Source: Psychroserpens damuponensis (GTDB lineage Bacteria; Bacteroidota; Bacteroidia; Flavobacteriales; Flavobacteriaceae). From it: 64,000 bases of DNA. A model generated the notes under the pieces. The model was given only the letters and a program-made list of their open reading frames with translations, was not told where the DNA came from and made no database searches. The DNA lies in assembly GCF_000826655.1 (NCBI RefSeq), contig NZ_JXJO01000017.1, positions 434,001 through 498,000 on the forward strand, read 5' to 3'. Shown one piece after another: positions 4,802 through 60,811 of this stretch (positions within the stretch are counted from its first letter, which is position 1; every line of letters starts with the position of its first letter). The position numbers and the translations under genes were made by a program.

Positions 4802-5524
4802 TTGAAAAAAGCAAGTCTTTTATTATTCACCTTACTCCTATTAATATCTTGTACAAAGGAGGTTAAAGTTGATTTTTCCGAAGAAATAATAGAAACGTCT
4901 GAAGGTGCAGACATAGCATTTAATTTCCCTAAAGCTACAGGTACAGCCGAGGTGACCAAACGTATTAACCAAACTCTTGAAAACCATATCGTAAAACAAA
5001 TTAACGTCTCAGAAAGTGAGACTTTTGATGGCAATTTATATGATGCTGTAGCTCAATTTAACCACGAATATCAACGTTTTAAAAATAATTTCCCTGAGGC
5101 TGCACAGCCGTGGGAAGCTTTTATAGATGGCGAAATAACGTATCGTTCTCCTGAAATTATTAGTATTGCCATAACATCATATTTAGATACAGGTGGAGCG
5201 CATGGTAATTCTAGTGTTCGATTTTTTAATTTCAATCCGCAAACTGGAGAACAATTGCTCACAAATGACCTCTTGGCAAATACAAAAGGAATTTCTGAAG
5301 TGATAAAAGAAAAACTAATCACAGCAATTAAAGCTGAACCAAATAGCACCACAATGGAAGATGTGTTCTTTGGAAAAGATTTCCAGCTTCCTGAAACTTT
5401 AGGCTACAGCGATGAAGGGCTTATTATATTATATAACCCTTATGAAATTGCATCGTATTCTCAAGGTATTGTTGAGTTTACAATCCCTTATGAAGCTGTT
5501 ACTTCATTTTTAAAAATTAACTAG
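4802..5524 (+). CDS. DUF3298/DUF4163 lipoprotein (RsiV-like fold)
   Basis: The 240-residue protein begins with a lipoprotein signal ([16 protein letters not shown], cysteine in the lipobox). The central [22 protein letters not shown] is the hallmark of the DUF3298 domain, which with the preceding DUF4163 region is also found in RsiV and PdaC. The start codon is TTG: the only nearby upstream ATG (4778) runs into a stop after six codons. Role is unknown, but a periplasmic binding function (RsiV binds lysozyme) is plausible. The 3' end overlaps the converging antiporter gene by 4 bases and no terminator separates them. Confidence 0.85.
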
Positions 5525-6768
5525 TCTGAATCTTTAGATAACTTTTTAATAATAGGTCCAACTGTTAACCCTTGCCCTATTATTGAAAATACGACGATCA
5601 CATAGGTAATCACTAAAAATAATTCGCGATGCATTTCGGTAGTTAAACTTAGAGCGAGTGCAATAGATATACCTCCTCTTAATCCTCCCCAAGTCATAAT
5701 TAAATTGGTATGCTTTACAAATTCTAGTTTTTTATCGAAGAATTTTATAGGTAACCACAACGATACATAACGGCTTAACAACACTAACGGAATAGCTATA
5801 ATACCAGCTAAAATATACGTTGTATGAAAGGTTAACACTAGCATTTCCATACCTATCATTACAAAAAGCACGGTATTAAGTAATACATCTACAAGTTCCC
5901 AAAACTTGTCTACATACACTTCGGTAACATTAGACATAGAGTTTTTTCTAACGGTATCATTACCAACAATTAATCCTGCTGTAACCATGGCTAAAGGCGC
6001 AGATAAATGCCATTGATGTGCCAACAAGCTTCCTCCCATAACCGTTGCTATGGTTATTATAACTTCAACTTCATAATCATCAATAGATTTTAATAGTTTA
6101 TATGTGATATACCCTAAAATAAGGCCTAATGCAATACCTCCTAATACTTCTTGGCCAAACAATTTTGCGATTTCACCTAACTCGATAGCTGCATCTGGTT
6201 TCGCTGCAATTGCAAAAATAGTTAAGAACACTACCACACCAACTCCATCATTAAATAGAGACTCTCCAACAATTTTAGTTTCTAGTTTTTTAGGCGCTCC
6301 AGCTTTTTTCAAAATGCCCAACACTGCAATAGGATCTGTAGGAGAAATTAATGCACCAAATAATAAACAGTAAATAAAGGCAACGTCTAGACCTAACAAT
6401 TGTAAAAGATAAAAGGTTAATATACCAACCAAAAATGTAGAAACGAGAACACCCAAGGTTGCAAACACTAAAACTGGCCAACGTTGGATTTTAAGCTGAT
6501 TAAAATTAGTATGTAAAGCACCTGCAAACAGCAAAAAACTTAACATAATATCTAGAAGTACCGTTTTAAAATCTATTTGAGAAATAAGCTCTTTTTCACT
6601 TTGCAAAAGTGTATCATCAAATTGACCAATAGCCACCACAACCATCGTAAAAACAATGGTAATAAGCATCAAACCAATAGTAATTGGTAATTTTAAATAT
6701 TTTACATTGATATAACCAAAAAGCGCAGACAGTACAATTAATACAGATGCAATTTCATAATAACCCAT
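5521..6768 (-). CDS. CPA1-family Na+/H+ (cation:proton) antiporter
   Basis: The 415-residue inner-membrane protein has about 12 predicted helices. The CPA1 ion-binding motifs are visible: [16 protein letters not shown] and, further on, [14 protein letters not shown], which carries the ND pair of NhaP-type antiporters. A third conserved block, [14 protein letters not shown], holds the conserved arginine. It exchanges Na+ or K+ for protons. There is no C-terminal regulatory domain, so this is a short NhaP form. It is transcribed alone, tail to tail with the lipoprotein gene. Confidence 0.93.
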
Positions 6769-6869
6769 AGGTGTTTAAATTTTAGATAAAAGTAACTATT
6801 TTTCTTCTTAAATCCGTTTACTTTGCATTACGTAAATTAAAATCTGACCTCACAAATAGTTAAACCATA

Positions 6870-8588: not shown

Positions 8589-8665
8589 ATTTTCGTATTT
8601 AAGACTGTAAAGTTATTGTTTTTTATAAACCCAAACGATGCGCTTAATAACTTTATGAAATTAGT

Positions 8666-10161: not shown

Positions 10162-10740
10162 ATGAAGATTGGCTTGTATTTTGGGACGTTTAATCCAATT
10201 CATATTGGACATTTAACAATTGCAAATCATCTTGCAGAGCATAGTGATTTAGATAAAATTTGGTTTGTTGTAACACCTCACAGTCCTTTTAAAAAGAAAA
10301 GTACGTTATTAGATAATCGACAGCGTTACGAAATGGTTTACAGAGCAACTAAAGAGTACAAAAAGCTAGAACCAAGTGATATTGAATTTAATTTGCCGCA
10401 ACCAAACTACACTATAAATACATTAACTTACCTTCAAGAAAAGTATCCTCATCATGAGTTCGCTTTAATTATGGGAGAGGATAATTTAAAAAGCTTTCAT
10501 AAATGGAAAAACTATGAGCTCATCTTAAATCATCATGATATATATGTGTATCCTAGAATTTCCGAAGGAAAAATAGAGACTCAATTTGATAATCACAATA
10601 AGATTCATAAAATAAATGCTCCAATTATGGAACTGTCTTCTACCTTTTTACGTAAATCTATTAAAGACGGTAAAAACGTGAGACCAATGTTGCCAGAAAA
10701 CGTTTGGGAATATTTAGACGAAATGAATTTTTACAGGTAA
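10162..10740 (+). CDS. nadD: Nicotinate-nucleotide adenylyltransferase
   Basis: The 192-residue enzyme makes deamido-NAD from nicotinate mononucleotide and ATP. It shows the nucleotidyltransferase GTFNPIHIGHL motif (residues 8-18), the GEDNLKSFHKWKNY block and the C-terminal ELSSTFLRKSIKDGK (ISSTxIR-type) motif. It is the last gene of the yicC-gmk-nadD operon. Confidence 0.96.
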   Translation: MKIGLYFGTFNPIHIGHLTIANHLAEHSDLDKIWFVVTPHSPFKKKSTLLDNRQRYEMVYRATKEYKKLEPSDIEFNLPQPNYTINTLTYLQEKYPHHEFALIMGEDNLKSFHKWKNYELILNHHDIYVYPRISEGKIETQFDNHNKIHKINAPIMELSSTFLRKSIKDGKNVRPMLPENVWEYLDEMNFYR

Positions 10741-12399: not shown

Positions 12400-13410
12400 T
12401 TATTCAAAAACAACAGTAGATGCATCCTTACTAACGTTCATATTAACGTTACGTCCAAAGATCATAGCACGATTATCCTTCTCATGACCTGCAGGCATAC
12501 CAAAGGCAATTGGAAAATCATAATCTGCTAATGCATCTAAAATTAATTGCTCAATAGAAGTTCCCCAAAGTGTGGTGTTTTTACGCATTTTACTCATACC
12601 ACCAACCAAAACACCTGCACAGTTATCAAAATAACCTGCACGTTTCATACTTTGAAGCATACGGTCAATATGATATTTGTATTCTCCAATTTCTTCTATA
12701 AATACAATCTTACCAGTTGTATCTATACTTTCTTTAGAGCCTAACATGGTATGGAGTATGGTAAGGTTTCCGCCAACTAAAGGACCATGCGCCTCTCCTA
12801 CTCTATTGTAGGTAGATCCTTTAAGCGTATAATTTACGGGTTGCCCAAAAATTGTAGATTTAAAAGTTGCTACAGTTTCTTTTATATCTGTTATATCTTT
12901 TGGTAAGCTTACACACATCAAAGCATGCATACTTTGAAATCCTGCATTATGAAATTGATTGTGCAATGCAGTAATATCACTATACCCAATTAACCATTTA
13001 GGATGTTTCTTAAACGTTGTATAATCTAATTTATCTAAAATTCTAACCGTACCATAACCACCTCTTGCACACCAAATCGCACTAATAGTGGGATCATCCA
13101 TAGCATTTTGAAAATCTTCACAACGTTCAGCATCTGTTCCTGCAAAATGATTGTCTTTACTAAACACATGTTTACCAACAACAGCATGTAATCCCCAACT
13201 TTCTATTAATGCAACAGCTTGAGCTACTTCATCATTTCGGTTTTTTAATATTCCTGAAGGCGCTACAATAGCAACAGTATCGCCAGCTTTTAAAAATGGT
13301 GGTTGTATCAAAGCAGTTTGTTTTTTTTGGACAGATTTATCTTGAGCGCTTACATTTCCGAAGAAAAACAACACGCATATCAAGATTAAAAGAGTATGGA
13401 TTTTAGACAT
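12400..13410 (-). CDS. LD-carboxypeptidase (S66 family), secreted
   Basis: The 336-residue protein starts with a signal peptide (SKIHTLLILICVLFFFGNVSA), so unlike cytosolic LdcA of E. coli it is exported. S66 peptidases remove the terminal D-Ala from tetrapeptides during murein recycling. The nucleophile serine lies in the GYSDITALHNQF block, the glutamate in VFIEEIGEYKYHIDRML and the histidine in MPAGHEKDNRA, so the Ser-Glu-His triad is complete. An in-frame GTG exists at 13425, but the ATG at 13410 leaves a proper signal peptide. Confidence 0.9.
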   Translation of the reverse strand: MSKIHTLLILICVLFFFGNVSAQDKSVQKKQTALIQPPFLKAGDTVAIVAPSGILKNRNDEVAQAVALIESWGLHAVVGKHVFSKDNHFAGTDAERCEDFQNAMDDPTISAIWCARGGYGTVRILDKLDYTTFKKHPKWLIGYSDITALHNQFHNAGFQSMHALMCVSLPKDITDIKETVATFKSTIFGQPVNYTLKGSTYNRVGEAHGPLVGGNLTILHTMLGSKESIDTTGKIVFIEEIGEYKYHIDRMLQSMKRAGYFDNCAGVLVGGMSKMRKNTTLWGTSIEQLILDALADYDFPIAFGMPAGHEKDNRAMIFGRNVNMNVSKDASTVVFE

Positions 13411-13630
13411 AATGTAAATGTACACGATATTGATAAATATAAAAAGTGATAATTAATACGTTTTATGTTCATCTAAGCCTTGCCACTTTTAATTATAACA
13501 CAAACCTGTACAAAAAAACACTAACATAAAATGATAGTACTTTTTCATCGCTTTTTCACCAAATCTAGTAAAAAAACAGAACCAATTATCATTTGGAGAG
13601 TTAAGAGTTAACTAATAAAAACTTAATGAT

Positions 13631-13638
13631 TATTTTTG
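13631..13638 (+). promoter_or_regulatory. -7 promoter box of metG
   Basis: TATTTTTG matches TAnnTTTG, 20 bases before the metG ATG at 13659. It lies inside a possible longer reading frame, which argues for the downstream ATG. Confidence 0.55.
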
Positions 13639-13658
13639 CACTCAAATTGAAACACTTT

Positions 13659-15761
13659 ATGTCTACACATCCTAAACGATATACAATTACAGCTGCATTA
13701 CCATATACTAACGGTCCAATCCATATTGGCCACTTAGCTGGTGTGTATGTGCCTGCAGATATTTATGCACGCTACAAAAGATTAACTGGCAACGATGTGG
13801 CTTTCATTTGCGGAAGCGATGAACACGGAGTTCCAATCACTATCAAAGCTAAAAAAGAAGGTGTAACACCTCAAGATATCGTTGATAAATATCATGCGAT
13901 TATAAAAAAATCGTTTGTAGACTTTGGGATTACATTTGATAATTACTCACGTACCTCAGCAAAAATTCATCATGATACTGCTCAAGAATTTTTTAAAACC
14001 CTTAATGATAAAGGTGAATTTATAGAAGAAACTACAGAGCAATTGTATGACGAAGAAGCGAATCAATTTTTAGCAGATCGTTTTGTAACAGGAACGTGCC
14101 CAAAATGCGGAAACGAAGAGGCTTATGGTGACCAATGCGAAAGTTGTGGTTCTAGTTTAAATGCCACAGATTTAATTAATCCAAAATCGGCTATTACTGG
14201 CAATGTACCTACGTTAAAAGAAACAAAACACTGGTTTTTACCTTTAGATAAACACGAAGATTTTTTAAAAGAATGGATTTTAAAAGGTCATAAAAAAGAT
14301 TGGAAACCTAACGTTTACGGACAAGTAAAATCATGGATTGATGATGGTTTACGACCAAGAGCCGTGACTCGTGATCTCGATTGGGGAATCCCAGTTCCTG
14401 CTCCAGGAGGCGAAGGCAAAGTGCTTTACGTTTGGTTTGATGCTCCAATTGGTTATATCTCTGCAACTAAAGAATGGGCTGCACAAGAAGGTAAAGATTG
14501 GGAACCTTATTGGAAAGACCAAGACACCAAACTCGTTCACTTTATTGGTAAAGATAACATTGTGTTTCACTGTATTATTTTCCCATCAATGTTAAAAGCC
14601 GAAGGCTCATATATTTTGCCAGATAACGTACCTGCTAATGAGTTTCTAAACTTAGAAGGCAACAAATTATCGACCTCTAAAAATTGGGCTGTGTGGTTAC
14701 CAGATTATTTAGAGGATTTCCCAAATCAGCAAGATGTGTTGCGTTATGCGTTAACTGCAAATGCACCTGAATCTAAGGATAACGATTTTACTTGGAAAGA
14801 TTTCCAGGCAAGAAATAATAATGAGTTGGTAGCTATCTTCGGAAATTTTATAAACCGAGTAGTAGTCCTTACCAACAAATATTACGAAGGCGTCGTGCCT
14901 AAAGCTTCAGAGTTCTCAGACATTGACAATGAGGTTTTGGCTGCCATCAAAGCCTATCCTGCAGTAATTGAAAGTTCAATAGAACGTTATCGTTTTAGAG
15001 AAGCAAGTCAAGAATTAATGAATTTGGCACGTTTAGGTAATAAATACCTAGCAGATGAAGAACCTTGGAAACTCATTAAAACAGACGAAGTTCGTACAAA
15101 AACAATCATGTTTGTAGCACTTCAAATTGCGAGTGCATTAGCAACGTTGAGTGAACCCTTTTTACCGTTTACTTCTATTAAACTAAAAAAGATTCTTCGC
15201 ATTGCTCTAAATAACAATGTCATTTCAACAGAAGGAGGTACTACTAACGAGGAATCTCAAAAATGGAGCGACATTTCAACCAAAGACATCTTAATCTCAT
15301 CAGGACATCAAATTGGTAAAGGCGAATTATTATTCTCTAAAATTGAAGATAAAACCATAGACGCACAATTAGAAAAACTAGAAGCCAGTAAAAAAGCAAA
15401 TGAAGCTGCAAATAAAGTTATTGAGCCTCAAAAAGACCTCATCACTTTTGAAGACTTCACGAAACTAGATATGAGAGTTGGTACAATTCTCGAAGCAGAA
15501 AAAATGCCTAAAACCAAGAAGCTTTTAATTTTAAAAGTTGACACAGGTATTGATACAAGAACCATTGTATCTGGTATCGCTGAAAGCTTTTCTCCAGAAG
15601 AAGTGGTTGGCAAACAAGTCACCGTTTTAGTCAATTTAGCACCAAGAAAATTAAGAGGTGTAGACAGTGAAGGCATGATTTTAATGACCGAAACTCCTGA
15701 GGGTAAATTGGTGTTTGTAAATCCTGATACTGCTGTTAAAAATGGATTACAGATAAGTTAA
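13659..15761 (+). CDS. metG: Methionyl-tRNA synthetase
   Basis: The 700-residue enzyme charges tRNA-Met. HIGH-type motif: [13 protein letters not shown] near residue 20. KMSKS-type motif: KLSTS in [16 protein letters not shown] four-cysteine zinc knuckle is present ([18 protein letters not shown]). The C-terminus carries an EMAP-II/Trbp111-like tRNA-binding domain ([19 protein letters not shown] to the end), which also serves dimerisation. The start is the ATG at 13659 ([19 protein letters not shown]); a frame opening at 13626 would add 11 unsupported residues and run over the promoter box. Confidence 0.97.
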
Positions 15762-17117: not shown

Positions 17118-17153
17118 GACCTCATACAGATAAATTGTATGAGGTCTTTTTTT
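17118..17153 (+). terminator. Terminator abutting the tex start codon
   Basis: GACCTCATACA, loop GATAAAT, TGTATGAGGTC gives an 11-bp perfect stem followed by seven Ts (17147-17153). The ATG of tex begins at the very next base, so this hairpin may also act as a leader element or attenuator for tex. Confidence 0.88.
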
Positions 17154-25347: not shown

Positions 25348-25368
25348 TATTTCCGAAGTAAAAATACT

Positions 25369-31168: not shown

Positions 31169-31209
31169 TAAAAGAGCACTATTATTTTCTTCGGAAATGT
31201 AACGTATAA

Positions 31210-35427: not shown

Positions 35428-35580
35428 AATTATAACTCTACAATTTGAAGTAAATATAAGCAAAGTGAAAACATCTTAAATGGAATTAACAAAATAAATA
35501 AAGACATTATAATTTTCATAAAATATGAACAAACTGCTGTTATTCTTTTTATTTTTGACTATTCAATTAAACGTAATAAT

Positions 35581-39190: not shown

Positions 39191-39191
39191 C

Positions 39192-42204: not shown

Positions 42205-42342
42205 ATATCTTAATGTTTTAAATTATTATTCTGAAATGCAAAGATACGCAAAATAAGTAGTCTGTTTAAAGTATTCAGTTAGCAGTTTCAATGGGTAGAT
42301 ATGAATTTTCTATAGTGAGATATTTCCGAAGAGAACAAAAGA

Positions 42343-42881: not shown

Positions 42882-43670
42882 ATGAGTTTTGCAAAATGGA
42901 TAGGAGGCGCTTTGGGTTGGTCTTTTGGTGGACCAATTGGAGCCATCATAGGTTTGGCTATTGGAAGTTTAATTGATGGATCTACAAAAGGTGGCGGTTT
43001 TTTATTAGGCGATGGAGATACGCAGCAGCAAAGACGTTCAAGGCAAAACACCTCTCAATCTAGAACTCATACTCGTACTCGTACACAAACGCGATCGGGA
43101 GACTTTGAAGTAAGTCTTTTAATATTAGCCTCAGTAGTGATTAAAGCAGATGGTAAACAAGACCAAAGCGAGTTAGATTTTGTACGTCAACAATTTGTGA
43201 GCATGTATGGCAAAGATCGAGCTAATCATGCGTTTAAGCTTTTTAAAAATGTAAGTAAACAACAAATACCTGTACGTAAAGTATGTTTGCAAATACGTGA
43301 AATGATGGATCACTCTTCACGGTTACAATTGCTTCATTTCCTCTTCGGAATAGCTAAAGCAGACGGTATGGTAACTGATGATGAAGTGTCTCAAATCTAT
43401 ATGATCTCTGGTTATTTAGGTATTAGTTCTCGCGACTACGCAAGTATCAAAGCCATGTTTTATAACAGCTCAGATAATGCTTATAAAATTTTAGAAATCA
43501 CAAAAGAGGCCACCGATGATGATGTTAAAAAAGCGTACCGAAAAATGGCTAAAAAATACCATCCAGATAAAGTTATTCATTTAGGTGAAGAACATCAAAA
43601 AGGTGCCGAAGAAAAATTTAAACAAGTGCAAATGGCTTATGAACAATTACAAAAAGAACGTGGATTTTAA
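42882..43670 (+). CDS. TerB/DnaJ-domain cochaperone (DjlA-like)
   Basis: The 262-residue protein has a Gly-rich N-terminal helix that can insert in a membrane (WIGGALGWSFGGPIGAIIGLAIGSLIDG), a TerB-like helical domain (about 65-185, FEVSLLILASVVIKADGKQDQSELDF), and a C-terminal J domain with the HPD motif (KKYHPDKVIHLG). It stimulates a DnaK-type chaperone, and the order of domains matches DjlA. It overlaps by 4 bases the small converging gene. Confidence 0.92.
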   Translation: MSFAKWIGGALGWSFGGPIGAIIGLAIGSLIDGSTKGGGFLLGDGDTQQQRRSRQNTSQSRTHTRTRTQTRSGDFEVSLLILASVVIKADGKQDQSELDFVRQQFVSMYGKDRANHAFKLFKNVSKQQIPVRKVCLQIREMMDHSSRLQLLHFLFGIAKADGMVTDDEVSQIYMISGYLGISSRDYASIKAMFYNSSDNAYKILEITKEATDDDVKKAYRKMAKKYHPDKVIHLGEEHQKGAEEKFKQVQMAYEQLQKERGF

Positions 43671-46718: not shown

Positions 46719-46983
46719 GACATCTAAGGAATGTCTAAAACTCAAGCGACCAGTTTTAGTATTATGAAGTCGTTTTTTTACTTCGGAAATTTTAGGACTA
46801 CATTAATAGTTCATTTTTTATCATTTTAAACCAACTAAAACTTTACCTAATACAAACACTATTCTCGTAAAAGCAACATTATGTTACATATAGCGCATAC
46901 TTTGTTACAATAGTTTTAAGTATAAATAAAGGCTTCAATTATTTTTATCATCTACAAATCAGGTATTTAAACCTTAAAACAAT
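46719..46983. other. Intergenic stretch of 265 bases
   Basis: It holds a copy of the TTCCGAAG octamer (46781-46788, reverse orientation), a short inverted repeat AGACAT/ATGTCT just after the stop, and AT-rich sequence up to the next ATG. No clear promoter, terminator or small gene is seen. Confidence 0.4.
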
Positions 46984-48242: not shown

Positions 48243-49403
48243 CTACCCTCTAAACAAAAAGAAATCGTCCTTCATATCTTCAATTTGAGCATCTTCATTA
48301 GTAATAATGTAATCAATGGCTTGCGTTGTAAAAGCATTACCTTTTACAGTGAGGGACACGATGTTTTTATTAATCTCAATCATATTATTTTTTAGAGCTA
48401 AATCTAAAACCGTTTTAGAGCGCACTTTTTGCCAATTGATATGTTCATTTAAGTGATTCACATGACGTTCTCGTTCTTCATCATGGTTTTTTAAATGCAG
48501 CAAAAAAGTGAGTAAGGATACTTCTGTACGTTGTTGTTTTTCTCGATACATCACTGCAAAAACACCTTTACTTGGCGCAAATAAATAAACTAACAAAAAT
48601 AAAAATCCTAATACTGTTGTGATTGAACCCGAAATAGACGCATCTAATTGATGTGCTACCCAATAACCTGCGATTGCGCTAAAAACCCCAAAGAGTATTG
48701 AAAGTGACAACATTTTCTTTAAATCTGTTGTTAACAAATAGGCCGTTGCAGCTGGAGCAATCATGAGCGCAACAACTAAAATTGCACCAACAGCATCAAA
48801 AGCACCTACAGTGGTTATTGATGATACTGTCATTAATCCGTAATGAATAATCACAGGAGAAAACCCTAAGGATGCTGCTAAGCCTTTATCAAACGTACTA
48901 AGTTTTAGCTCTTTAAAAAACGCTAGTAATAATACAATTGTAATAATTAAAATGACACCGATCACCCAAAGTGCTTTAGGACCAACATCTACACCAGAAA
49001 TTAGTAAACGATCAAAAGGCGCTAATGCTAACTCTCCAACTAAAACCGCATCAATATCAAGATGCACATCATTTGCTTTTTTTGCAATCATTAATACTCC
49101 AATACTAAATAACACAGGAAACACTAAACCAATGGCTGTATCTTCTTTTACCAATCCTGTTTTTTGGATATACTCAACCAAAACAACAGTTACAACTCCT
49201 GTTAAAGCAGCTAATAAAATTAATAAAGGCGAGTTTAAATCTTGGGTAATAAAAAAACCAACTACAATTCCAGGAAGTATGGAATGACTAATGGCATCGC
49301 TTATCATGGCCATTTTACGAAGTACTAAAAACGTCCCAGGAATAGCACAAGCAACAGCTACTAGACTCGCTATAAGTTGTATTTCTATTTGTGCACTACT
49401 CAT
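48243..49403 (-). CDS. ABC-3-type divalent-metal permease with winged-helix tail
   Basis: The 386-residue protein has about eight hydrophobic helices in residues 1-280 (SDAISHSILPGIVVGFF, GAFDAVGAILVVALMIAPAATAYLL) typical of the Mn/Zn/Fe ABC-3 permeases. About 100 further residues at the C-terminus (VSLLTFLLHLKNHDEERERH, KVRSKTVLDLALKNNMIEINKNIVSLTVKGNAF) look like a winged helix. It is the last gene of the metal operon and overlaps the upstream permease by 8 bases. The metal is not determined by sequence; Mn, Zn and Fe are all possible. Confidence 0.9.
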   Translation of the reverse strand: MSSAQIEIQLIASLVAVACAIPGTFLVLRKMAMISDAISHSILPGIVVGFFITQDLNSPLLILLAALTGVVTVVLVEYIQKTGLVKEDTAIGLVFPVLFSIGVLMIAKKANDVHLDIDAVLVGELALAPFDRLLISGVDVGPKALWVIGVILIITIVLLLAFFKELKLSTFDKGLAASLGFSPVIIHYGLMTVSSITTVGAFDAVGAILVVALMIAPAATAYLLTTDLKKMLSLSILFGVFSAIAGYWVAHQLDASISGSITTVLGFLFLLVYLFAPSKGVFAVMYREKQQRTEVSLLTFLLHLKNHDEERERHVNHLNEHINWQKVRSKTVLDLALKNNMIEINKNIVSLTVKGNAFTTQAIDYIITNEDAQIEDMKDDFFLFRG

Positions 49404-50523
49404 CGTTCTTGGATAATTGATTATATAAATTTAAAGCCGATTCAAACCCTTCGTTTGTCAAACTCCAAGTAGACCCTTTTAATGTCACGTAATTTTTTTC
49501 TACCAGTTTTTTAAGAGTCCCTTTGGTATACCCTTGAAACCCATTTAGGATTTTAATTTCGTGTGGATGAGTAATGTCTGCATGCGACTCTGCAATATGA
49601 TACATAAACGCTAAAGTTTTATGCAATTCTAAATCGCGTCGATTTTTTATAAATCGAATTTGTTTAAATAACAAACCGCGACTTGGAGAGAATATAAAAG
49701 AGATGAGTACAAAAACCGCTGCTACTAACACAATAACAGGACCTGTAGATAAATTATTTTGACTCGCACTAATTGCTGTGCCAAAAACACCCGAAAACGC
49801 ACCAAAAATCGCAGCTAAAACCACCATTGTTGCGAGACTATTTGTCCATTGTCGTGCTGCAGCTGCAGGTGCCAAAAGCATAGCACTCATTAATACAACA
49901 CCAACGGTTTGCAACCCTAAAACAATAGCCAAAACAATAAAGCTCGTAATTAAAATATCAATCAATTTTGTATTAAATCCAAGAGTTTTAGCATAGTCTT
50001 TATCAAAGAGTAAAATTTTAAATTCTTTCCAAAAAAGTAATAATACAAAAAGGCAAATACCTGTTACAATAGCCATCATCCACACATCACTTTCTACCAG
50101 TGTTGCTGCTTGACCAAATAAGTACTTATCTAGTCCAGCTTGATTGGCATTGGGTTGTTTTTGTATAAAAGTAAGCAAGAGCATTCCGAAGCCAAAAAAC
50201 AACGATAGAATTAAACCTAAAGCCGTATCAGATTTTAAGTGGGTTTTTGTTATAATTCCACGAATCCAGAAGGTTCCAATCAAACCACTCACTAAGGCTC
50301 CTAATAATAATGTATGACTGTCTTTTGCTCCAGTAATTAAAAACGAAATAGCGATTCCTGGTAAGGCAGCATGAGAAATGGCGTCACCAAGTAAACTCTG
50401 TTTTCTAAGTACCGCAAAACTACCTAACATACCTGTGACTGCACCAAGAATTGCAGTACCTAAGGTGATGGTTCTAAGCGTATAGTCTGTGAAAACTAGT
50501 TCTATGTAGTCTTTTAAATCGAT
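49396..50523 (-). CDS. ABC-3-type divalent-metal permease; start codon not canonical
   Basis: The 375-residue frame shows the family features (GMLGSFAVLRKQSLLGDAISHAALPGIAISF, VGVVLMSAMLLAPAAAARQW). The ATG at 50430 would lose the whole first helix. Upstream of it the frame stays open to a stop at 50530-50532 and encodes IDLKDYIELVFTDYTLRTIT then LGTAILGAVTG, which looks like the missing family N-terminus, yet it holds no ATG, GTG or TTG. The most likely start position is 50521-50523, now ATC (ATC-GAT-TTA-AAA), where homologs should have ATG. The C-terminal 100 residues (LHKTLAFMYHIAESH, TKGTLKKLVEKNYVTLKGSTWSLTNEGF) look like a winged helix. Confidence 0.75.
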   Translation of the reverse strand: MDLKDYIELVFTDYTLRTITLGTAILGAVTGMLGSFAVLRKQSLLGDAISHAALPGIAISFLITGAKDSHTLLLGALVSGLIGTFWIRGIITKTHLKSDTALGLILSLFFGFGMLLLTFIQKQPNANQAGLDKYLFGQAATLVESDVWMMAIVTGICLFVLLLFWKEFKILLFDKDYAKTLGFNTKLIDILITSFIVLAIVLGLQTVGVVLMSAMLLAPAAAARQWTNSLATMVVLAAIFGAFSGVFGTAISASQNNLSTGPVIVLVAAVFVLISFIFSPSRGLLFKQIRFIKNRRDLELHKTLAFMYHIAESHADITHPHEIKILNGFQGYTKGTLKKLVEKNYVTLKGSTWSLTNEGFESALNLYNQLSKNDE

Positions 50524-51501: not shown

Positions 51502-52410
51502 TTATTTCAGTGCATTTACAATCGTGTTCACATTATACTCAAACATACCAATATAAGAGCCTTCTAGAGTGCCAGTACTTCCTAATGCATCAGAGTATAA
51601 TGTACCTCCAATTTCCACCTCATGACCTTTAGATTTTACTGAAGCCTGTAAAGCTTCAATGGTTCGTTTTGGAACTGAACTTTCTACAAAAATAGCTTTA
51701 ATTTGTTTCTCTATAATAAAAGCCGATAATTGCTGTACGTCTTGTACTCCTGCTTCGGTAGCTGTAGATATGCCTTGTAAGCCTACAACTTCAAAGTTGT
51801 AAGCTTTTCCGAAGTAATTAAACGCATCATGTGCAGTTACTAATATTCTTTTTTCCTTCGGAAGTGTCTCAATAGTCGCTTTTATATTTTTTTGAAGTTC
51901 ATCTAATTGCGCCAAATATTTAGCTTCATTTGCTTTAAAATTATCGGTATTTTCTGGATTTTTTTCTGAAAGTACTTGCGTTACTTTTTTAGCAAATTGC
52001 TTAAAATATTCGATATCAAACCATACATGCGGATCATAATTTGACGCAAAATAATCTGATCCTATCAAGGTGTTTTTATCCAACTCTTCACCTAATGCGA
52101 TTGGTGTTTTGGTTGCGCTTCCCATTTTCTCAAATACCTCAACGAGTTTGCCTTCTAAGTGTAAACCATTATAAAAAATCACATTGGCTTCTACCAATTT
52201 TGTCACATCGCCTTCACTGGCTTTATAGAGGTGAGGATCTACTCCACTACCCATTAACCCTTGAACGTTAACGAATTCTCCACCAATGTTTTCAACCAAA
52301 TCGGTTATCATTGTAGTAGTTGTAACAACATTTAATTTACCGTTAGATTTTGTTTCGTTTTTACAACTAAAACATGCGAAAATGACAAGAATAGTTATCA
52401 GTTTTTTCAT
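51502..52410 (-). CDS. Metal ABC transporter substrate-binding lipoprotein (TroA/ZnuA type)
   Basis: The 302-residue cluster-9 binding protein has a lipobox signal (TILVIFACFSCKNE) and metal ligands in GSGVDPHLYKAS (first His), DPHVWFD (second His), an acidic residue in VESSVPKRT, and a terminal aspartate in YSDALGSTG. It captures Mn, Zn or Fe in the periplasm and delivers it to the permeases. There is no His-rich loop of the ZnuA type, which leans towards Mn or Fe (inference). Confidence 0.93.
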   Translation of the reverse strand: MKKLITILVIFACFSCKNETKSNGKLNVVTTTTMITDLVENIGGEFVNVQGLMGSGVDPHLYKASEGDVTKLVEANVIFYNGLHLEGKLVEVFEKMGSATKTPIALGEELDKNTLIGSDYFASNYDPHVWFDIEYFKQFAKKVTQVLSEKNPENTDNFKANEAKYLAQLDELQKNIKATIETLPKEKRILVTAHDAFNYFGKAYNFEVVGLQGISTATEAGVQDVQQLSAFIIEKQIKAIFVESSVPKRTIEALQASVKSKGHEVEIGGTLYSDALGSTGTLEGSYIGMFEYNVNTIVNALK

Positions 52411-52451: not shown

Positions 52452-54704
52452 TTAATTCAATGAATAACGCAATCCTAAAAACGCCCTAATGCCTTGATTA
52501 GGTCCATAAACGTATGATGGATCAAAAGTTAACGCAAATGGATTATCTTGTGTAGCTAGCACATTTCCGTCGTTATCAAACTCAACATTCTCATCAAATG
52601 GATCATTTGCTCGGGCAATAATAAAGGGGTTTCCACGATTTGGAGTCCAATTTAGTAGGTTTTTTATGCCTGCATATAATTCAAAGTTTTCAAATCCGTC
52701 GTAAGTAAATTGTATATTTTGAATACTCCAAGTTGGCGAAAATTCTTGCCTAGGATCTAAATCGCCAAGTAGAGGTAATCGCATTGGTCCATACAAATTA
52801 CCTGTATAATCTACCGTAATATTTGTAGGATAGTGTTTGTATGACAACGACCAAGTACCTGTAAAACGCTCAGTTAATATTTGACGTGTTCGTACGTCAT
52901 TTTCGGTTTGCGAAACATCTTGTATTGTAGCTCCAATACTACCTTTAATACCTGTTGCTAAAAGTGCGTCAAGGTTTAAACTTATACCTTTTGAGGTTGA
53001 ATAACCATCTAAATTATCATAGATAATTTGGTTAGGATTAGTATCGTAATCTGGTATAATGGCATTGGTAAAATGTGTATACCATACAGAGGTATCAAAG
53101 GTAAATATCATCCCTTTTTTAGTGTACCATTTTTTGAGATAATTAATGTTAACATTGTATGATTGTTCTGGCTCTAATGCCTCTTCGATAATAACATCTC
53201 TTGCTCCTGTAAGTGCAGCATGTTCTTCTGTAAATAGATTAACTACCCTAAATCCTGTCCCAGCATTTACTCTAATAATATCATCACCAGTTGGTTTGTA
53301 TTTATATGCTACACGAGGTGTTATAATAGAGCCATGTCTATTATCATAATCATAACGCAACCCAAGCAAGAGATTTTGCTTTGTACTAAGCTCAATTTCG
53401 TCTTGTACAAAAAGAGAAGGAATAGTCACCTCATCTGGACGTAAAGTTGCAGTTGTGTTATCATTATAATAATTATAACGTAAGGCTGCACCAAATAATA
53501 GATCGTGCTTTTCTAGCGGTTTGTCCCAAATAAATTGCCCAAAGCCGATACGCTGTTGTGCTAAATATGGTATATTGCCATAGACCGAATTTTGATCATG
53601 ATCTGAGTATGAAAATTGAAAATTTACTTTTTCATCAATAGGCAACTCGTAGTCTCCAAGAAGCTCAAAGCGTGACGTATAAATGCTTTCACCATAAACC
53701 TCATCGCCTCCTCTAAAGCTTTTGTTCCATTGAAGTTCTCCTCCCCAACGATCTTCATAAAAATAACGTCCAGCAAGAGAAAACTTTTTATTGTCTTCTC
53801 TTTTAAAATCCCATTTATTAAAAATAGAAATACGGTCTTGCAAGGTTAAATCGGTGAAATTATCATTGTTATTATCTATTTTATTGTTGTACGTAAAATA
53901 ATTAGTCCCAAATAGCATTGTTGCCTTCTCTCCTACATTGGTTTTAAAACCAGCATCTACGTTGAGTTCTCCCCAACCTGTTACAAACGTATCAGCAAAA
54001 ACAATAGGTGCATTTTCTGGTAATTTTGTGATAATATTTATTAAGCCACCAACCGCTTCACTACCATACAGTGATGATGCAGGACCTTTAACTATTTCTA
54101 CTTGTTCAATTAAAGAATTTGGTATACCAGACAACCCATAAACTGTTGATAGCCCACTTACTATTGGCATACCATCAATTAAAACTAGGGTGTATGGACC
54201 TTCTAAACCATTAATATGAATATCACCAGTATTACATACATTACAGTTAAGTTGTGGACGCACTCCATTTACATTTTGAAGGGCATCAAAAATGTTTGGA
54301 GTAGGATTCTTTTTAAAAAAAGCGGGAGAATATACTTCTACAGGTACAGCACTTTCTAATCGGCTTACAGATTTAAGCGTTCCTGTAACCACTATTTCAT
54401 CTAAAGAATCATCGTACTGCATATTAAAAGTTAGGTTTTTTGTGTCTTCGGAAATATCAACTGATTTCTTAATAGTTTTATAACCCACAAATGATACCAT
54501 AATATCATGTGAACCTGGAGCAACGTTTGATAATTGAAAATAACCGTTATCATCTGTCGTGGTTCCTAAACTACTGCCTCTAATATAAACGCTCACATAA
54601 GGTAAACCTTGATTTTCGGACAACACACGCCCTGTGATTTCATAAGAATTTTGCCCTTGAGCATACAATCCTAAACATAGTACTAGCACATTAATTAGTT
54701 TCAT
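52452..54704 (-). CDS. TonB-dependent receptor, metal-uptake operon
   Basis: The 750-residue outer-membrane protein has a signal peptide (KLINVLVLCLGLYAQG), a CarboxypepD_reg-like domain (about 22-95, GRVLSENQGLPYVSVYIRGS), a plug (about 110-245) and a beta barrel. The plug contains the unusual CNVC pair (PQLNCNVCNTGDIHINGLEG) and then VEIVKGPASSLYGSEAVGG. Closing residues RAFLGLRYSLN end the barrel. As first gene of the metal operon, it most likely imports a metal or metal complex. The CNVC may bind a metal, as an inference. Confidence 0.92.
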   Translation of the reverse strand: MKLINVLVLCLGLYAQGQNSYEITGRVLSENQGLPYVSVYIRGSSLGTTTDDNGYFQLSNVAPGSHDIMVSFVGYKTIKKSVDISEDTKNLTFNMQYDDSLDEIVVTGTLKSVSRLESAVPVEVYSPAFFKKNPTPNIFDALQNVNGVRPQLNCNVCNTGDIHINGLEGPYTLVLIDGMPIVSGLSTVYGLSGIPNSLIEQVEIVKGPASSLYGSEAVGGLINIITKLPENAPIVFADTFVTGWGELNVDAGFKTNVGEKATMLFGTNYFTYNNKIDNNNDNFTDLTLQDRISIFNKWDFKREDNKKFSLAGRYFYEDRWGGELQWNKSFRGGDEVYGESIYTSRFELLGDYELPIDEKVNFQFSYSDHDQNSVYGNIPYLAQQRIGFGQFIWDKPLEKHDLLFGAALRYNYYNDNTTATLRPDEVTIPSLFVQDEIELSTKQNLLLGLRYDYDNRHGSIITPRVAYKYKPTGDDIIRVNAGTGFRVVNLFTEEHAALTGARDVIIEEALEPEQSYNVNINYLKKWYTKKGMIFTFDTSVWYTHFTNAIIPDYDTNPNQIIYDNLDGYSTSKGISLNLDALLATGIKGSIGATIQDVSQTENDVRTRQILTERFTGTWSLSYKHYPTNITVDYTGNLYGPMRLPLLGDLDPRQEFSPTWSIQNIQFTYDGFENFELYAGIKNLLNWTPNRGNPFIIARANDPFDENVEFDNDGNVLATQDNPFALTFDPSYVYGPNQGIRAFLGLRYSLN

Positions 54705-55683: not shown

Positions 55684-57783
55684 TTACTTTAATAATTGAT
55701 AAGCTATTAAGGCTACCACATAAGCAAAGGCACTCATAATTACCAATTGATAGGCTGGCCATTTCCAAGAGTTTGTTTCTCGTTTCACAATGGCTAAAGT
55801 ACTCATACATTGCATTGCAAAGGCATAAAATAGCAAGAGCGAAATACCGCTAGCAAAATTAAATAATGGTCCGCCCAAAATTGGGTTCACCTCTCCTGCC
55901 ATTCGATTTTTAATGGTTTCTTCTTCATCACTTCCTACACTATATATTGTTGCTAAAGTACCAACAAAAACCTCTCGAGCAGCAAATGAACTTACAATAG
56001 CTATACCAATTTTCCAATCATAACCTAATGGTCTAATGGCTGGTTCAATGGCATGACCTGCAATACCAATAAAGGAGTGTTCTAATTTATGTGATGCAAT
56101 TTTTTGGTCTAATTCTTCTTGTGCTAAATTTTCCGAAGAAAATTGTGTGGTCACGATCTCTTCAGCATTATTAAAATCGTCTCCTGGTCCATAAGAGGCC
56201 AAAAACCAAAGTACAATAGAGATTGCTAAAATTATTTTACCTGCTCCAAATACAAACGATTTAGTTTTTTCTAAAACTGTGAGCGCAACGTTTTTAAATA
56301 AAGGCACTTTATAATTTGGCATTTCTACCACAAAGAAGGTTTTACTTTTTATTTTTAAAACCTTATTTAATATCCAAGCTGAACCTACGGCTGCACCAAA
56401 ACCTATAAGATATAACAGCATTAAGGTTAATGCTTGATAACTTAAGCCTAAAAATCGACCTTCTGGTATGACTAAAGCAATAATAATTAGATAGACTGGT
56501 AATCTAGCGGAACAGGTGGTGAACGGTGTTACTAAAATAGTAATTAAACGTTCTTTCCAGCTTTCTATATTACGAGTTGCCATAATTGCAGGAATCGCAC
56601 ATGCTGTACCAGATATTAATGGCACAACACTTTTACCACTTAAACCAAATCGTCTCATGATACGATCCATTAAAAAGACAACGCGACTCATATAACCGCT
56701 TTCTTCTAACACCGAAATGAATAGGAATAAAAAGGCGATTTGCGGAATAAAAATCACAATACCTCCTAACCCAGGAATTATACCTTCGGCTAATAAATTT
56801 GTAAATGCACCTTCTGGCATGACGTTTTTTGTCCATTCGCTTAATGATGCAAAGGTAGAGTCTATAAAATCCATTGGTACACTAGACCAATCATATATAG
56901 CTTGAAAGATGAGTAATAAGATAAAACCAAAGATTAAATATCCCCAAACTTTATGGGTTAAAATTCTATCCAGTTTAATCCTTAAATCTTTAGCTGATTT
57001 AAGATCTATGGTTTGACCTTTCTTTAAGGTATTATTTATAAACTGATATCGTTTAATCGTTTCTTTTTGCTGTAATCGTTTAAGGTCTGTTTTACTTTTC
57101 GTTTTAAAACTATTTATGGCATCAACTTCGTTTCTATTAACATTTCCGAAGTTAACATCTTGCGTGATTACCAACCATAATTTATACAATAGTTGATTTG
57201 GAAATGCTGTACGTAATTTATTAAAATAGTCTTTATCAATTTCGGAAGCATTAACACAAGGCTCTGTAGATAACTCTTTATAATTGGTTATTAACTCTTT
57301 AAGTTGATCTATACCTTTTCCTTTTCGTGTACTAATAAGTGCGATTTTGGTTTTTAATTCGCGCTCTAAGTAAGCGATGTCTAAATGAATACCTTTATAA
57401 GACATTCTATCTGACATGTTGATAGCTAATACTGTAGGAATCTGTAAATCTTTTATTTGCGTATATAAAAGTAAGTTTCGTTTTAAATTTTCAACGTCAC
57501 TTACTACCACTGCGACATCTGGATAATCTTTATCATTTTTATTAAGGAGCAGCTCTATAACTACGTTTTCATCAAGAGAAGATGCATTTAAACTGTAGGT
57601 TCCTGGCAAGTCAATAATATGTGCTTTTACACCTCTTGGTAATTTACAAATACCTTCTTTTTTCTCTACAGTAATCCCTGGATAATTACCTACTTTTTGA
57701 TTTAAACCTGTTAGTGCATTAAACACAGATGTTTTACCTGTGTTTGGATTACCAATAAGTGCTACATTTATTTGTTTAGACAT
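55684..57783 (-). CDS. feoB: Ferrous iron transporter FeoB
   Basis: The 699-residue protein has an N-terminal G domain (G1 GNPNTGKT at residues 10-17, G3 DLPGTYSL, G4 NMSD), then a cytosolic linker and gate-type membrane segments (GGIVIFIPQIAFLFLFISVLEESGYM, SGTACAIPAIMATRNIE). It imports Fe(II) through the inner membrane. The ATG at 57783 is chosen because MSKQINVALIG is the family start, and it overlaps feoA by 8 bases. Confidence 0.97.
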   Translation of the reverse strand: MSKQINVALIGNPNTGKTSVFNALTGLNQKVGNYPGITVEKKEGICKLPRGVKAHIIDLPGTYSLNASSLDENVVIELLLNKNDKDYPDVAVVVSDVENLKRNLLLYTQIKDLQIPTVLAINMSDRMSYKGIHLDIAYLERELKTKIALISTRKGKGIDQLKELITNYKELSTEPCVNASEIDKDYFNKLRTAFPNQLLYKLWLVITQDVNFGNVNRNEVDAINSFKTKSKTDLKRLQQKETIKRYQFINNTLKKGQTIDLKSAKDLRIKLDRILTHKVWGYLIFGFILLLIFQAIYDWSSVPMDFIDSTFASLSEWTKNVMPEGAFTNLLAEGIIPGLGGIVIFIPQIAFLFLFISVLEESGYMSRVVFLMDRIMRRFGLSGKSVVPLISGTACAIPAIMATRNIESWKERLITILVTPFTTCSARLPVYLIIIALVIPEGRFLGLSYQALTLMLLYLIGFGAAVGSAWILNKVLKIKSKTFFVVEMPNYKVPLFKNVALTVLEKTKSFVFGAGKIILAISIVLWFLASYGPGDDFNNAEEIVTTQFSSENLAQEELDQKIASHKLEHSFIGIAGHAIEPAIRPLGYDWKIGIAIVSSFAAREVFVGTLATIYSVGSDEEETIKNRMAGEVNPILGGPLFNFASGISLLLFYAFAMQCMSTLAIVKRETNSWKWPAYQLVIMSAFAYVVALIAYQLLK

Positions 57784-58009
57784 CTGCAATATCAATTAAA
57801 ATGTGAATAGCCGTTTCTTTTCTTATGGCCAAATGCGTCCCATTAATATTAAGGTACATTGGGTCTGCAAAAGGAGCCACTTGCACAAGCTCAACAGCGT
57901 TGCCAGGTAAACATCCCATTTCTAAAAGTTTAAGAGGTATGTGGACTGAGGAAACATCAGTAATGACGCCTAATTGTCCTCGTTTAATATCTGCTAAAGT
58001 ATATTTCAA
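57776..58009 (-). CDS. feoA: Ferrous iron transport protein FeoA
   Basis: The 77-residue SH3-like protein (TLADIKRGQLGVITDV, LLEMGCLPGNAVELVQ, DPMYLNINGTHLAIRKETA) is of the usual FeoA size and acts at the cytosolic side of FeoB. It overlaps feoB by 8 bases and is the first gene of feoA-feoB-Cys-rich. Confidence 0.96.
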   Translation of the reverse strand: MKYTLADIKRGQLGVITDVSSVHIPLKLLEMGCLPGNAVELVQVAPFADPMYLNINGTHLAIRKETAIHILIDIADV

Positions 58010-58043: not shown

Positions 58044-58080
58044 AAGGAAAAATTTAGTGTAAAAAAATTGTGGTCGGTTT

Positions 58081-58749: not shown

Positions 58750-58873
58750 AAATTGATAATTAGGACTTTACAGACTTCCAATTGTAAGTTTGAAATGCAA
58801 AAATACGACACAATAGCTACAAATTGACTACTTTTAACATGCTATATTTTAATAAAAAGAAAAACATACAATC

Positions 58874-60811
58874 ATGAAATTACGACTACTCCTTTTTTTT
58901 AGTCTCTGCTCTACTTTATCCTTTTCTCAAGATTATAACGAAACTTTAAATGCCATTAGCGAGTCTGAAGCTAAGTCTGCTTTAAATCTAATGATGCAAC
59001 GTTCTAATCTCAACACAGGAAATTATAACTTAAAATACCATAGATTAGAATTAGAGGTAGATCCTGGAGTCGCTTTTATATCTGGAGCTATAACAAGTTA
59101 CTTTGAAGCAAAAAGTGATTTATCAACGATAACATTTGATTTATCTTCAAATATGATCGTCTCTCAAGTGTTACAAAGAGGCAATGCCTTAACCTTTACC
59201 CAAAATACCGATGATGAATTAGTCATCACCTTACCAACAATTCAAAATACAGGTGTTTTAGATTCCTTAACCGTAAGTTATTCTGGCAACCCAATAAGTT
59301 CTGGTTTAGGCTCATTTGCACAAAACCAACATAATGGAGATCCTGTGATTTGGACACTTTCTGAACCCTATGGAGCAAAAGCGTGGTGGCCTTGCAAGCA
59401 AGATTTAATTGACAAAATAGATTCTGTAGATGTTTATATGACAACGCCTCAATTTAATCCATCAAATGAAGAATACATATCCGTATCAAATGGCCTAGAA
59501 CAAAGTCAAATTGTTAATGGAACACAAAAAACAACCCATTTTAAACATCGTCATCCAATACCAGCTTATTTAATTGCAATTGCCGCTACTAATTATGAAG
59601 TTTATTCTCATACTGTACCCAATAATGGAAATCCGTTTGACATCGTCAATTATGTGTATCCAGAGAGCTTAGCAAATGCTCAAGTTAGCACACCTATTAC
59701 TGTAGATATTATGAATATTTTCAGTAATCTTTTTGAAGAATACCCTTATGCTGACGAAAAATATGGTCATGCCCAATTTGGTTGGGGAGGCGGCATGGAA
59801 CACACCACAGTGTCCTTTATGGGAAATTTTAGTCGTAATCTTGTTGCTCACGAGTTAGCACACCAATGGTTTGGAAATAAAATTACCTGCGGAAGCTGGA
59901 AAGACATCTGGCTTAACGAAGGTTTTGCCACATACCTCTCAGGTATCGTTATTGAAAATCTTGATGGCAATGATGATTTCAGGTTATGGAAACAACAACG
60001 AAACAACTCTATTACCTCTCAACCTGATGGAGCCGTTTATCTTACAGATCAAGATACCACAAGTATAGGTAGAATATTTAGTAGTAGATTATCTTACAAT
60101 AAAGGATCTATGGTATTACATATGCTTCGGAAAAAGTTAGGAGACACGCCATTTTTTCAAGCCATGCAAACTTATTTAGCAAGCTCAGAACATGCCTATG
60201 ACTATGCTAAAACTGAAGATTTTATATCTATAGTAGAAACATCTACTGGTGAAAATTTAACCGAGTTTTTTAATGATTGGCTATACAACCAAGGCTATCC
60301 AAGTTATACGATTAACTGGAATCAACCTTCAACAAACGAAGTCGCAATTACTATTAATCAAGCGCAAAGTCATACATCGGTTTCCTTTTTTGAAGCACCT
60401 GTTCCCATACGTTTAATAGGCTCACTTGGTGAAACTTTAAATCTTGTTTTAGATAATACAACTAACGGACAATATTTTTTAGAAACGGTGAATTTTAATG
60501 TACAAAACATCATATTTGATCCAGAATCTGATTTAATCTCACGAAACAACAATGTCCTTTTAAGTATTGATGATTTAGCCATTAAAAATGCGTTGTTGAT
60601 CTACCCAAACCCAACGACTGAAATTTTATTTATAGACAAACCGTCAAGCTTGGATATTTCCGAAGTAAAAATATTCAACACCTTAGGTCAACTTGTTAAT
60701 CAGTCACAATTTAGCACGACTTTAGACACCACAACTTGGACTTCAGGCATGTTCTTTATACAATTTCAAACCAAAGATGGTGTCATTACTAAAACGGTGT
60801 TAAAAAAATAA
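58874..60811 (+). CDS. M1-family aminopeptidase with T9SS sorting domain
   Basis: The 645-residue zinc peptidase has a signal peptide (RLLLFFSLCSTLSFSQ), the GGGMEH exopeptidase block (306-310), the zinc site HELAH (326-330) with E349 in NEGFATY, and a type A T9SS C-terminal domain (about 575-645; YPNPTTEILFIDK, TSGMFFIQFQTKDGVITKTVLKK). It is exported across the outer membrane and anchored or released there. It removes N-terminal residues from peptides outside the cell. Its export depends on T9SS, for which porZ at the left edge is a component. Confidence 0.95.
   Translation: MKLRLLLFFSLCSTLSFSQDYNETLNAISESEAKSALNLMMQRSNLNTGNYNLKYHRLELEVDPGVAFISGAITSYFEAKSDLSTITFDLSSNMIVSQVLQRGNALTFTQNTDDELVITLPTIQNTGVLDSLTVSYSGNPISSGLGSFAQNQHNGDPVIWTLSEPYGAKAWWPCKQDLIDKIDSVDVYMTTPQFNPSNEEYISVSNGLEQSQIVNGTQKTTHFKHRHPIPAYLIAIAATNYEVYSHTVPNNGNPFDIVNYVYPESLANAQVSTPITVDIMNIFSNLFEEYPYADEKYGHAQFGWGGGMEHTTVSFMGNFSRNLVAHELAHQWFGNKITCGSWKDIWLNEGFATYLSGIVIENLDGNDDFRLWKQQRNNSITSQPDGAVYLTDQDTTSIGRIFSSRLSYNKGSMVLHMLRKKLGDTPFFQAMQTYLASSEHAYDYAKTEDFISIVETSTGENLTEFFNDWLYNQGYPSYTINWNQPSTNEVAITINQAQSHTSVSFFEAPVPIRLIGSLGETLNLVLDNTTNGQYFLETVNFNVQNIIFDPESDLISRNNNVLLSIDDLAIKNALLIYPNPTTEILFIDKPSSLDISEVKIFNTLGQLVNQSQFSTTLDTTTWTSGMFFIQFQTKDGVITKTVLKK

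Follow-up and report, generated by a model that had tools for sequence, protein, structure and literature searches.

The window analysed here is the whole 64,000-nucleotide stretch of Psychroserpens damuponensis assembly GCF_000826655.1 (contig NZ_JXJO01000017.1, positions 434,001 to 498,000), which carries, among others, genes for a methionyl-tRNA synthetase, Tex, an ABC-3 permease, a ZnuA-like protein, a TonB-dependent receptor, FeoB and an M1 peptidase. Dispersed over the window is the octamer TTCCGAAG, which a first-pass annotation had singled out as about 25-fold over-represented, with 28 copies (15 forward, 13 reverse). The recount gives the same copies, spanning positions 4876 to 60665, against a mean of 1.05 and a maximum of 4 in 100 dinucleotide shuffles, an excess of about 27-fold. 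The copies of this uptake-like word are listed with their strand and the open reading frame (ORF) in which they lie, the local peptide being given in brackets.

4876-4883, plus strand: in ORF 4802-5524, plus (FSEE)
10560-10567, plus strand: in ORF 10162-10740, plus (ISEG)
13356-13363, plus strand: antisense in ORF 12400-13425, minus (FFGN)
14837-14844, minus strand: antisense in the methionyl-tRNA synthetase ORF 13626-15761, plus (IFGN)
17729-17736, plus strand: in the Tex ORF 17139-19271, plus (ISEE)
19477-19484, minus strand: antisense in ORF 19412-21814, plus (LFGN)
21784-21791, plus strand: close to the 3' end of ORF 19412-21814, plus (ISEE)
24189-24196, plus strand: close to the 3' end of ORF 21832-24219, plus (ISEE)
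24571-24578, minus strand: antisense in ORF 24263-25096, plus (FFGN)
25351-25358, plus strand: intergenic
29740-29747, minus strand: antisense in ORF 29580-30386, plus (SSE)
31189-31196, minus strand: intergenic
35352-35359, minus strand: in ORF 34903-35463, minus (VSEV)
36333-36340, plus strand: in the epimerase-family ORF 35581-36543, plus (ISEA)
39833-39840, minus strand: in ORF 39192-39848, minus (TSED)
42324-42331, plus strand: intergenic
43343-43350, minus strand: antisense in ORF 42882-43670, plus (LFGI)
44833-44840, minus strand: antisense in ORF 44547-46718, plus (TSE)
45449-45456, plus strand: in ORF 44547-46718, plus (ISEE)
46781-46788, minus strand: intergenic
50184-50191, plus strand: antisense in the ABC-3 permease ORF 49396-50430, minus (GFGM)
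51807-51814, plus strand: antisense in the ZnuA-like ORF 51502-52410, minus (YFGK)
51856-51863, minus strand: in the ZnuA-like ORF 51502-52410, minus (LPK)
54446-54453, minus strand: in the TonB-dependent receptor ORF 52452-54704, minus (ISED)
56131-56138, plus strand: antisense in the FeoB ORF 55684-57795, minus (SSE)
57144-57151, plus strand: antisense in the FeoB ORF 55684-57795, minus (NFGN)
60125-60132, minus strand: antisense in the M1-peptidase ORF 58874-60811, plus (LRK)
60658-60665, plus strand: in the M1-peptidase ORF 58874-60811, plus (ISEV)

Twenty-four of the copies lie inside ORFs, 12 along the gene and 12 against it, in agreement with the earlier statement that the word is placed without regard to gene direction, and the four said to be intergenic are so (25351, 31189, 42324 and 46781). 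The copies occupy several reading frames and peptide contexts and are not, as had also been noted, one peptide motif. The counts of related words were reproduced, with T preceding all 28 TCCGAAG, G following 28 of the 32 TTCCGAA and ACCGAAG occurring 15 times; GCCGAAG and CCCGAAG, given as 7 and 2, add up to 10 and not 9, as the total for CCGAAG is 53. The neighbouring genes at 19412-21814 and 21832-24219 carry the word (21784-21791 and 24189-24196) equidistant from their stops and in like contexts, as if paralogous ends had perhaps been retained together with it.

Throughout the assembly (3,945,764 bases in 106 contigs) TTCCGAAG occurs 1,520 times (779 forward, 741 reverse) as compared with 175 (72 forward, 103 reverse) for the reversed word, which is only a rough control because it ignores dinucleotide and codon effects. 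About 12% of the genome was read directly besides the window. A 424-kb sample, made up of positions 1-360000 of contig C16 and the window, contains 159 copies against Markov expectations of 4.9 (order 2), 9.5 (order 3) and 28.3 (order 4, a background that already holds much of TTCCGAAG itself), and in the Markov ranking TTCCGAAG is its top octamer. Synonymous-codon shuffling of the 357 genes in this sample (200 shuffles) gave a mean of 9.4 copies and a maximum of 18, whereas 140 were observed; the resulting z of 43 is the highest among all octamers. The excess holds against Markov and codon-matched backgrounds alike, and neither of the outcomes named beforehand as fatal to it, a genome-wide count close to the Markov expectation or enrichment in a single frame and amino-acid context, was found. 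The word is real and is no coding artefact. The same sample contains the heptamer TTGGGGA/TCCCCAA 77 times (17.8 expected) and TCCCCAAG 24 times (2.4 expected); counts of both in the sample from the congener G305 are too few for a judgement on polarity.

TTCCGAAG forms the core of an extended motif, whose 3' tail is one-sided and A-rich. At positions +8 to +15 the fraction of A is 0.60 in P. damuponensis and 0.58 in G305, compared with 0.32-0.35 after control words ending in GAAG, CGAAG, GTAG or GCAG, and T at position -1 reaches 0.74 and 0.64, respectively, compared with 0.23-0.34 for control words. All 24 one-base changes of TTCCGAAG were covered in a test for variants. Two of them, TTCCGTAG (38 observed against 5.2 expected in P. 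damuponensis and 62 against 5.7 in G305) and TTCCGCAG (22 against 3.5 and 80 against 5.2), are in 6- to 15-fold excess with similar flanks (A 0.46-0.50, T at -1 0.42-0.68); with so strong an excess and much of the flanking pattern retained, they show position 5 to be tolerant. TACCGAAG, TGCCGAAG and TCCCGAAG are also in excess but without the tail and flanks, and were not counted as variants. A near-miss candidate, TTCGGAAG, is preceded by T in only 2% of cases in G305 and 12% in P. damuponensis so that much of it is probably the complement of the word-containing CTTCCGAAG; TTCCGGAG is raised in G305 alone, in small numbers. In 80-kb samples from five users belonging to other genera, the same core heads the octamer list and TTCTGAAG is raised throughout; the A-rich tail stands out in G279 and G039 and is weaker in G012, G101 and G198. 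A possible dialect, AGACGAAG, prompted by three 22-kb loci, shows no clear enrichment in any of 299 genomes. The first-pass annotation was right about the word itself; the tail, the tolerance at position 5 and the occurrence in other genera went unseen there.

Copies are found in both orientations with respect to genes, both in the 424-kb sample (63 along, 80 against and 16 intergenic or across gene ends, at a coding fraction of 0.913) and in 400 kb sampled from G305, a single-contig genome (245 copies, 96 along, 111 against and 38 outside). A proposed check for strand bias relative to origin and terminus revealed none: the replication arms of G305, set by GC skew, hold 60 forward and 59 reverse copies and 60 and 66, respectively, so there is no Chi-type orientation bias with respect to replication and no polarity towards the terminus of the kind known from FtsK-orienting polar sequences (KOPS) in these arm counts. 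Of 20 samples from G305, each of 20 kb, 18 hold 9-19 copies and two are low (5 and 2); the sample with only two words (G305:C1:3420001-3440000) has the highest GC content of the 20 (0.377). On contig C16 of P. damuponensis the spacing is over-dispersed (coefficient of variation 1.63 against a null 99th percentile of 1.23), largely because of a 44.9-kb desert without the word at 136786-181680. Contig C1 has a second one, of about 38 kb, at 161738-199849. The ten proteins scanned in the C16 desert include proteins sorted by the type IX secretion system, an IrrE/HTH protein, a hybrid sensor kinase and a beta-lactamase-family protein, and the five scanned in the C1 desert are four sugar/glycosyl transferases and one MBOAT acyltransferase. 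This gene content suggests accessory DNA.

Orthologous sites were aligned in 28 gene families (at least four congener members each) taken from 40-kb syntenic regions of P. damuponensis and ten congeners, which gave 23 alignment columns with the word in at least one genome and 70 genome-site cases, each with three or more ungapped orthologues. The identical word was present in the other genomes in 0.504 of comparisons, as against 0.096 for octamers matched in GC content and codon phase, of which none of 2,000 resamples reached 0.504, and 0.093 for CG-containing control octamers of equal GC content. Conservation in sister genomes, another check that had been proposed, is therefore five-fold that of control octamers (0.09-0.10). 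Per column, the mean best value was 0.27 against 0.046, and a value of at least 0.75 was found in 4 of the 23 columns against 0.5% of controls. Kinship between genomes acts on words and control octamers alike, and amino-acid identity around the words is ordinary (0.81 against 0.83). As none of 574 orthologue comparisons was gapped, words are gained and lost by substitution. Of the genes in the window, full-length Tex (17139-19271) is encoded in 13 of the 23 genus genomes; in the remaining 10 only short matches to S1 or HHH domains were obtained, so the gene has apparently often been lost or replaced. In the named collection, Tex is closest to the proteins of Psychroserpens burtonensis DSM 12212 (88%) and of an unclassified Flavobacteriales genome (87%).

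Octamer counts in the 23 genus genomes range from 278 to 2,174, with 1,060 in G299. The octamer threshold, set at 300 or more copies and no less than three-fold the reversed control, is passed by 27 of 299 Flavobacteriaceae genomes. When users are defined by the tailed form TTCCGAAGNAA (100 or more copies and a minimum of five times the control), they number 32 of the 299 genomes and 23 of 236 genera (both sets of tables were read by hand), examples being P. damuponensis (723 against 22) and G279 (796 against 21). In many family genomes the tailed word is near or below the control, and others, such as G168, G285, G073, G074 and G117, are intermediate. Even single genera are split, as in g31 (G256, 221 against 24; G030, 14 against 38) and g73 (G284, 423 against 21; G073, 104 against 29). 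Among 148 genomes sampled from the phylum, of which 133 lie outside the family, the highest outside count is 424. The word is found well beyond the window, across the genome, in the genus and in about two dozen genera.

The competence protein ComEC (PF03772) is encoded in 266 of the 299 family genomes, including P. damuponensis (G000:C23:120899-121705), and in 31 of the 32 tailed-word users, the exception being the 68%-complete assembly G202. Conversely, G030, rated 100% complete, has neither ComEC nor a DUF5689 match, and it holds 14 tailed words as opposed to 221 in its congener G256. These two observations fit, weakly, a need for competence genes. The pilus platform protein PilC/GspF (PF00482) was found in only 9 of 37 genomes, P. 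damuponensis included, and was not detected in the users G305 (2,174 copies), G012, G063, G279, G007 and G241. A requirement of PilC for word use is rejected in view of such strong users, and a type IV pilus is apparently not required. Reading by a pilus component like ComP, which is a property of the known readers and not of the word, is thus not indicated across these 37 genomes. The T2SSF/PilC gene of P. damuponensis (L268:9497-10630) has no detected counterpart in any of four congeners (G305, G315, G300 and G311).

A different candidate reader is suggested by Riemerella anatipestifer. In the P. damuponensis genome a 926-residue CarboxypepD_reg/Plug protein adjoins a 493-residue DUF5689 protein, which in alignment has a Ser-Cys-Val-Gln-Asp-Asp-Asp stretch near its start that we take to resemble a surface-lipoprotein signal. 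In a transposon screen of R. anatipestifer, ComEC, DprA, ComF, RecA and four unknown proteins were essential for transformation, two of the four being a predicted outer-membrane CarboxypepD_reg protein and an adjacent DUF5689 protein (PMC8459023). A tonBA mutant of that species shows lowered transformation with intact iron uptake, for which its authors propose a nutrient effect (PMC8383284). The screen, the adjacent pair and the mutant together make the CarboxypepD_reg/DUF5689 pair a candidate, and we speculate that the reader belongs to this outer-membrane DUF5689/TonB-receptor-like pair needed for transformation in R. anatipestifer. DUF5689 occurs in 34 of 36 genomes, users and non-users, with one to three tandem domains across the family; it is no marker of word use, being present regardless of it, and its sequence divergence is unlinked to the word. 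The P. damuponensis protein shares only 31-32% identity with its counterparts in G305 and G315, whereas Tex of the latter two reaches 89% (DUF5689 loci L267:7631-11873 and L109-L138). The best 50 of 1,257 structure matches to its AlphaFold2 model (mean pLDDT 80.7) are mainly adhesin, Eph-receptor and carbohydrate-binding domains, matched along about 180 residues, and a sequence-specific DNA-binding protein is not named among these 50.

On sequence grounds, TTCCGAAG with its A-rich 3' tail probably serves as a DNA-uptake-signal word for self-recognition in natural transformation. The word would be read at the uptake step, where the DNA-binding component of a surface uptake machine would prefer double-stranded DNA with the word to DNA without it. 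Word-bearing fragments would be imported and recombined more often, and word-bearing alleles would, as a result, spread through biased uptake (molecular drive), the word building up by point mutation at positions that the proteins tolerate. The outcome would be a genome marked as self. The first-pass annotation had likewise favoured an uptake-like word over a Chi-like or FtsK-orienting one; this preference is partly supported, by the absence of polarity, the one-sided tail, the conservation of sites, the deserts, the patchy use and the presence of ComEC in 31 of 32 users. The general protein-binding or modification site for which it also allowed is less probable.

Several observations weigh against this reading. 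The presence of ComEC is weak evidence because most non-users carry it too, and when only genomes of 90% or higher completeness and no more than 5% contamination are counted (by hand), the octamer threshold is passed by none of 11 without ComEC and 23 of 238 with it, which is no clear difference. A reader of the known kind cannot be assumed, since PilC is undetected in many users, and the P. damuponensis DUF5689 protein is only 31-33% identical to those of word-sharing congeners but 62% identical to that of G300, which has 278 copies of the word. The octamer threshold is also passed, at low density, by two genomes from outside the family, both of f14 (G337, 424 against 74; G347, 346 against 41). 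At 8 of the 23 alignment columns the word is in one genome only, so its turnover is high, and a foreign origin of the two deserts is only what we infer. Close inverted pairs of the word, which act as terminators in some systems with uptake words, show no clear excess: neighbours within 60 bp in any orientation number 5 (3.5 expected) in P. damuponensis and 13 (8.8 expected) in G305, with 3 of the 5 and 7 of the 13 on opposite strands. Nor is there a clear bias to gene ends, the first and last deciles together holding 0.18 and 0.24 of copies, respectively, against 0.20. Finally, uptake and competence in Psychroserpens and the user genera are only predicted, from genome sequences.

A Chi-like recombination hotspot, at which nucleases of the RecBCD or AddAB type would halt and repair would be promoted, might also be short, non-palindromic, very frequent, kept at orthologous sites and missing from the two deserts. 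The unbiased arms of G305 and the lack of a clear gene bias argue against it, however, as does the A-rich tail beyond the core, for which we know of no parallel in Chi. Use that is patchy across the family and differs 8-fold among members of one genus would not be expected of a general repair enzyme, and this explanation is unlikely. The even density around the G305 chromosome, and an extended, partly degenerate motif that resembles a protein footprint, would suit the binding site of a nucleoid or chromosome-organising protein. The 38- and 45-kb deserts of P. damuponensis and the few copies in most relatives speak against such a site, which seems to us a similarly small chance, and to our knowledge no such word-binding protein has been described in the phylum.

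That the word is a by-product of codon usage, peptide motifs or terminator hairpins might be argued from the recurring SE/SEE and FG contexts, from the tail-less excess of TACCGAAG, TGCCGAAG and TCCCGAAG, and from CTTCGG being a well-known stable hairpin loop. As a main cause it is already refuted and its probability is negligible, given the excess under synonymous shuffling, the intergenic and antisense copies, and conservation beyond matched octamers where protein conservation is ordinary. Self-recognition would likewise follow if the word were methylated and so labelled self DNA, either for defence or for uptake that depends on methylation, as reported in Campylobacter. Restriction sites, however, are commonly avoided rather than accumulated, and an A-rich tail of about eight bases is atypical of methyltransferase targets, which makes a modification site improbable. 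For C. jejuni, uptake that depends on methylation is cited by PMC7965970.

Other dispersed words were found in de novo scans for 8- and 10-mers (40-80 kb from each of 24 genomes). TTCCGAAG with TTCTGAAG was recovered in G078, the palindrome CGCTTTCGCGAAAGCG in G206, G242 and, less strongly, G190, where ACAACGGTCT scored higher, and weaker repeated words in G171, G068 and G059 (TTCTGAAG 19 against 5.0 there); the remaining genomes of the 24 gave nothing striking. CGCTTTCGCGAAAGCG, of 16 bp, is a separate dispersed word (L191-L194 in G242, L251-L252 in G206, L249-L250 in G190, and G010). Its part TTCGCGAAAGCG occurs, on both strands, 1,085 times in G010, 1,267 in G242, 593 in G190 and 1,681 in G206 (control 0-9), genomes with only 1-11 copies of tailed TTCCGAAG. 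Its possible roles are those of a second uptake word, a HIP1-like word or a hairpin. In some low-copy genomes CGCTTTCGCGAAAGCG forms clusters of 1-92 kb (G101:C1:436587-437535, G078:C1:2826984-2837736, G087:C1:2540757-2562674, G215:C1:1156265-1175087 and G012:C18:82639-174393), perhaps a kind of mobile element. Longer dispersed words, GACGCTTCAC and ACCGAAGCAG in G171 (L187-L190) and ACAACGGTCT in G190 (L249-L250), are perhaps repeat families.

Strong uptake-word preferences were described in 2020 as known in two families, the Pasteurellaceae, with the uptake signal sequence (USS), and the Neisseriaceae, with the DNA uptake sequence (DUS) (PMC7811141). A Bacteroidota word of the same genomic behaviour would be a third independent origin of such a preference. 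That the Flavobacteriaceae hold a third, independent uptake-word system which is not pilus-read, its reader being an outer-membrane TonB-receptor-like/lipoprotein pair of the Riemerella kind, is a tentative proposal that we regard as rather doubtful; if true, it would mean sequence-specific DNA import by a previously undescribed mechanism. An uptake word would also turn the search for its reader protein into a matter for direct experiment, in a lineage many of whose members lack a detected pilus platform protein, and would offer a practical handle for the transformation of marine flavobacteria.

TTCCGAAG behaves in the genome like an uptake sequence and is not classed as a proven member of the DUS or USS. 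It resembles the USS in its short non-palindromic core with an AT-rich flank, in origin by point mutation and in copy number, Haemophilus influenzae having 1,465 USS cores, or 2,206 by motif search (PMC7811141). It differs from the USS in its unrelated sequence, in a tail that directly abuts the core on one side, in that the gene-end bias reported by van Passel for Pasteurellaceae (PMC2346458) is not clear here, and in that PilC is undetected in many flavobacterial users. The DUS, read by ComP, is of the same order in copy number (1,892 in Neisseria meningitidis; PMC7811141), and since its distribution served to identify integrative elements (PMC7371117), the deserts described here might likewise mark such elements. 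The DUS is unrelated in sequence, however, and in the flavobacteria the platform protein of the type IV pilus is undetected in many users, there is no clear excess of close inverted pairs and the single dialect candidate failed. The cyanobacterial HIP1 word is, like TTCCGAAG, a dispersed and very abundant octamer, but HIP1 is palindromic whereas TTCCGAAG is not its own complement and has a one-sided tail.

Among the papers listed, with subscription journals mostly outside coverage, no flavobacterial uptake word was found beyond a k-mer table for R. columbina, R. anatipestifer and Flavobacterium johnsoniae, which lists A/T-rich words only and from which TTCCGAAG is absent (PMC7965970). The Riemerella system is nevertheless similar in other respects. 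Its authors place the genus in the Flavobacteriaceae and report that R. columbina prefers self DNA, with no known word (PMC7965970), a preference for which an uptake word could account, and the RA0C_RS04915-04920 kind of pair, a CarboxypepD_reg outer-membrane protein followed by a DUF5689 protein, is adjacent in P. damuponensis too.

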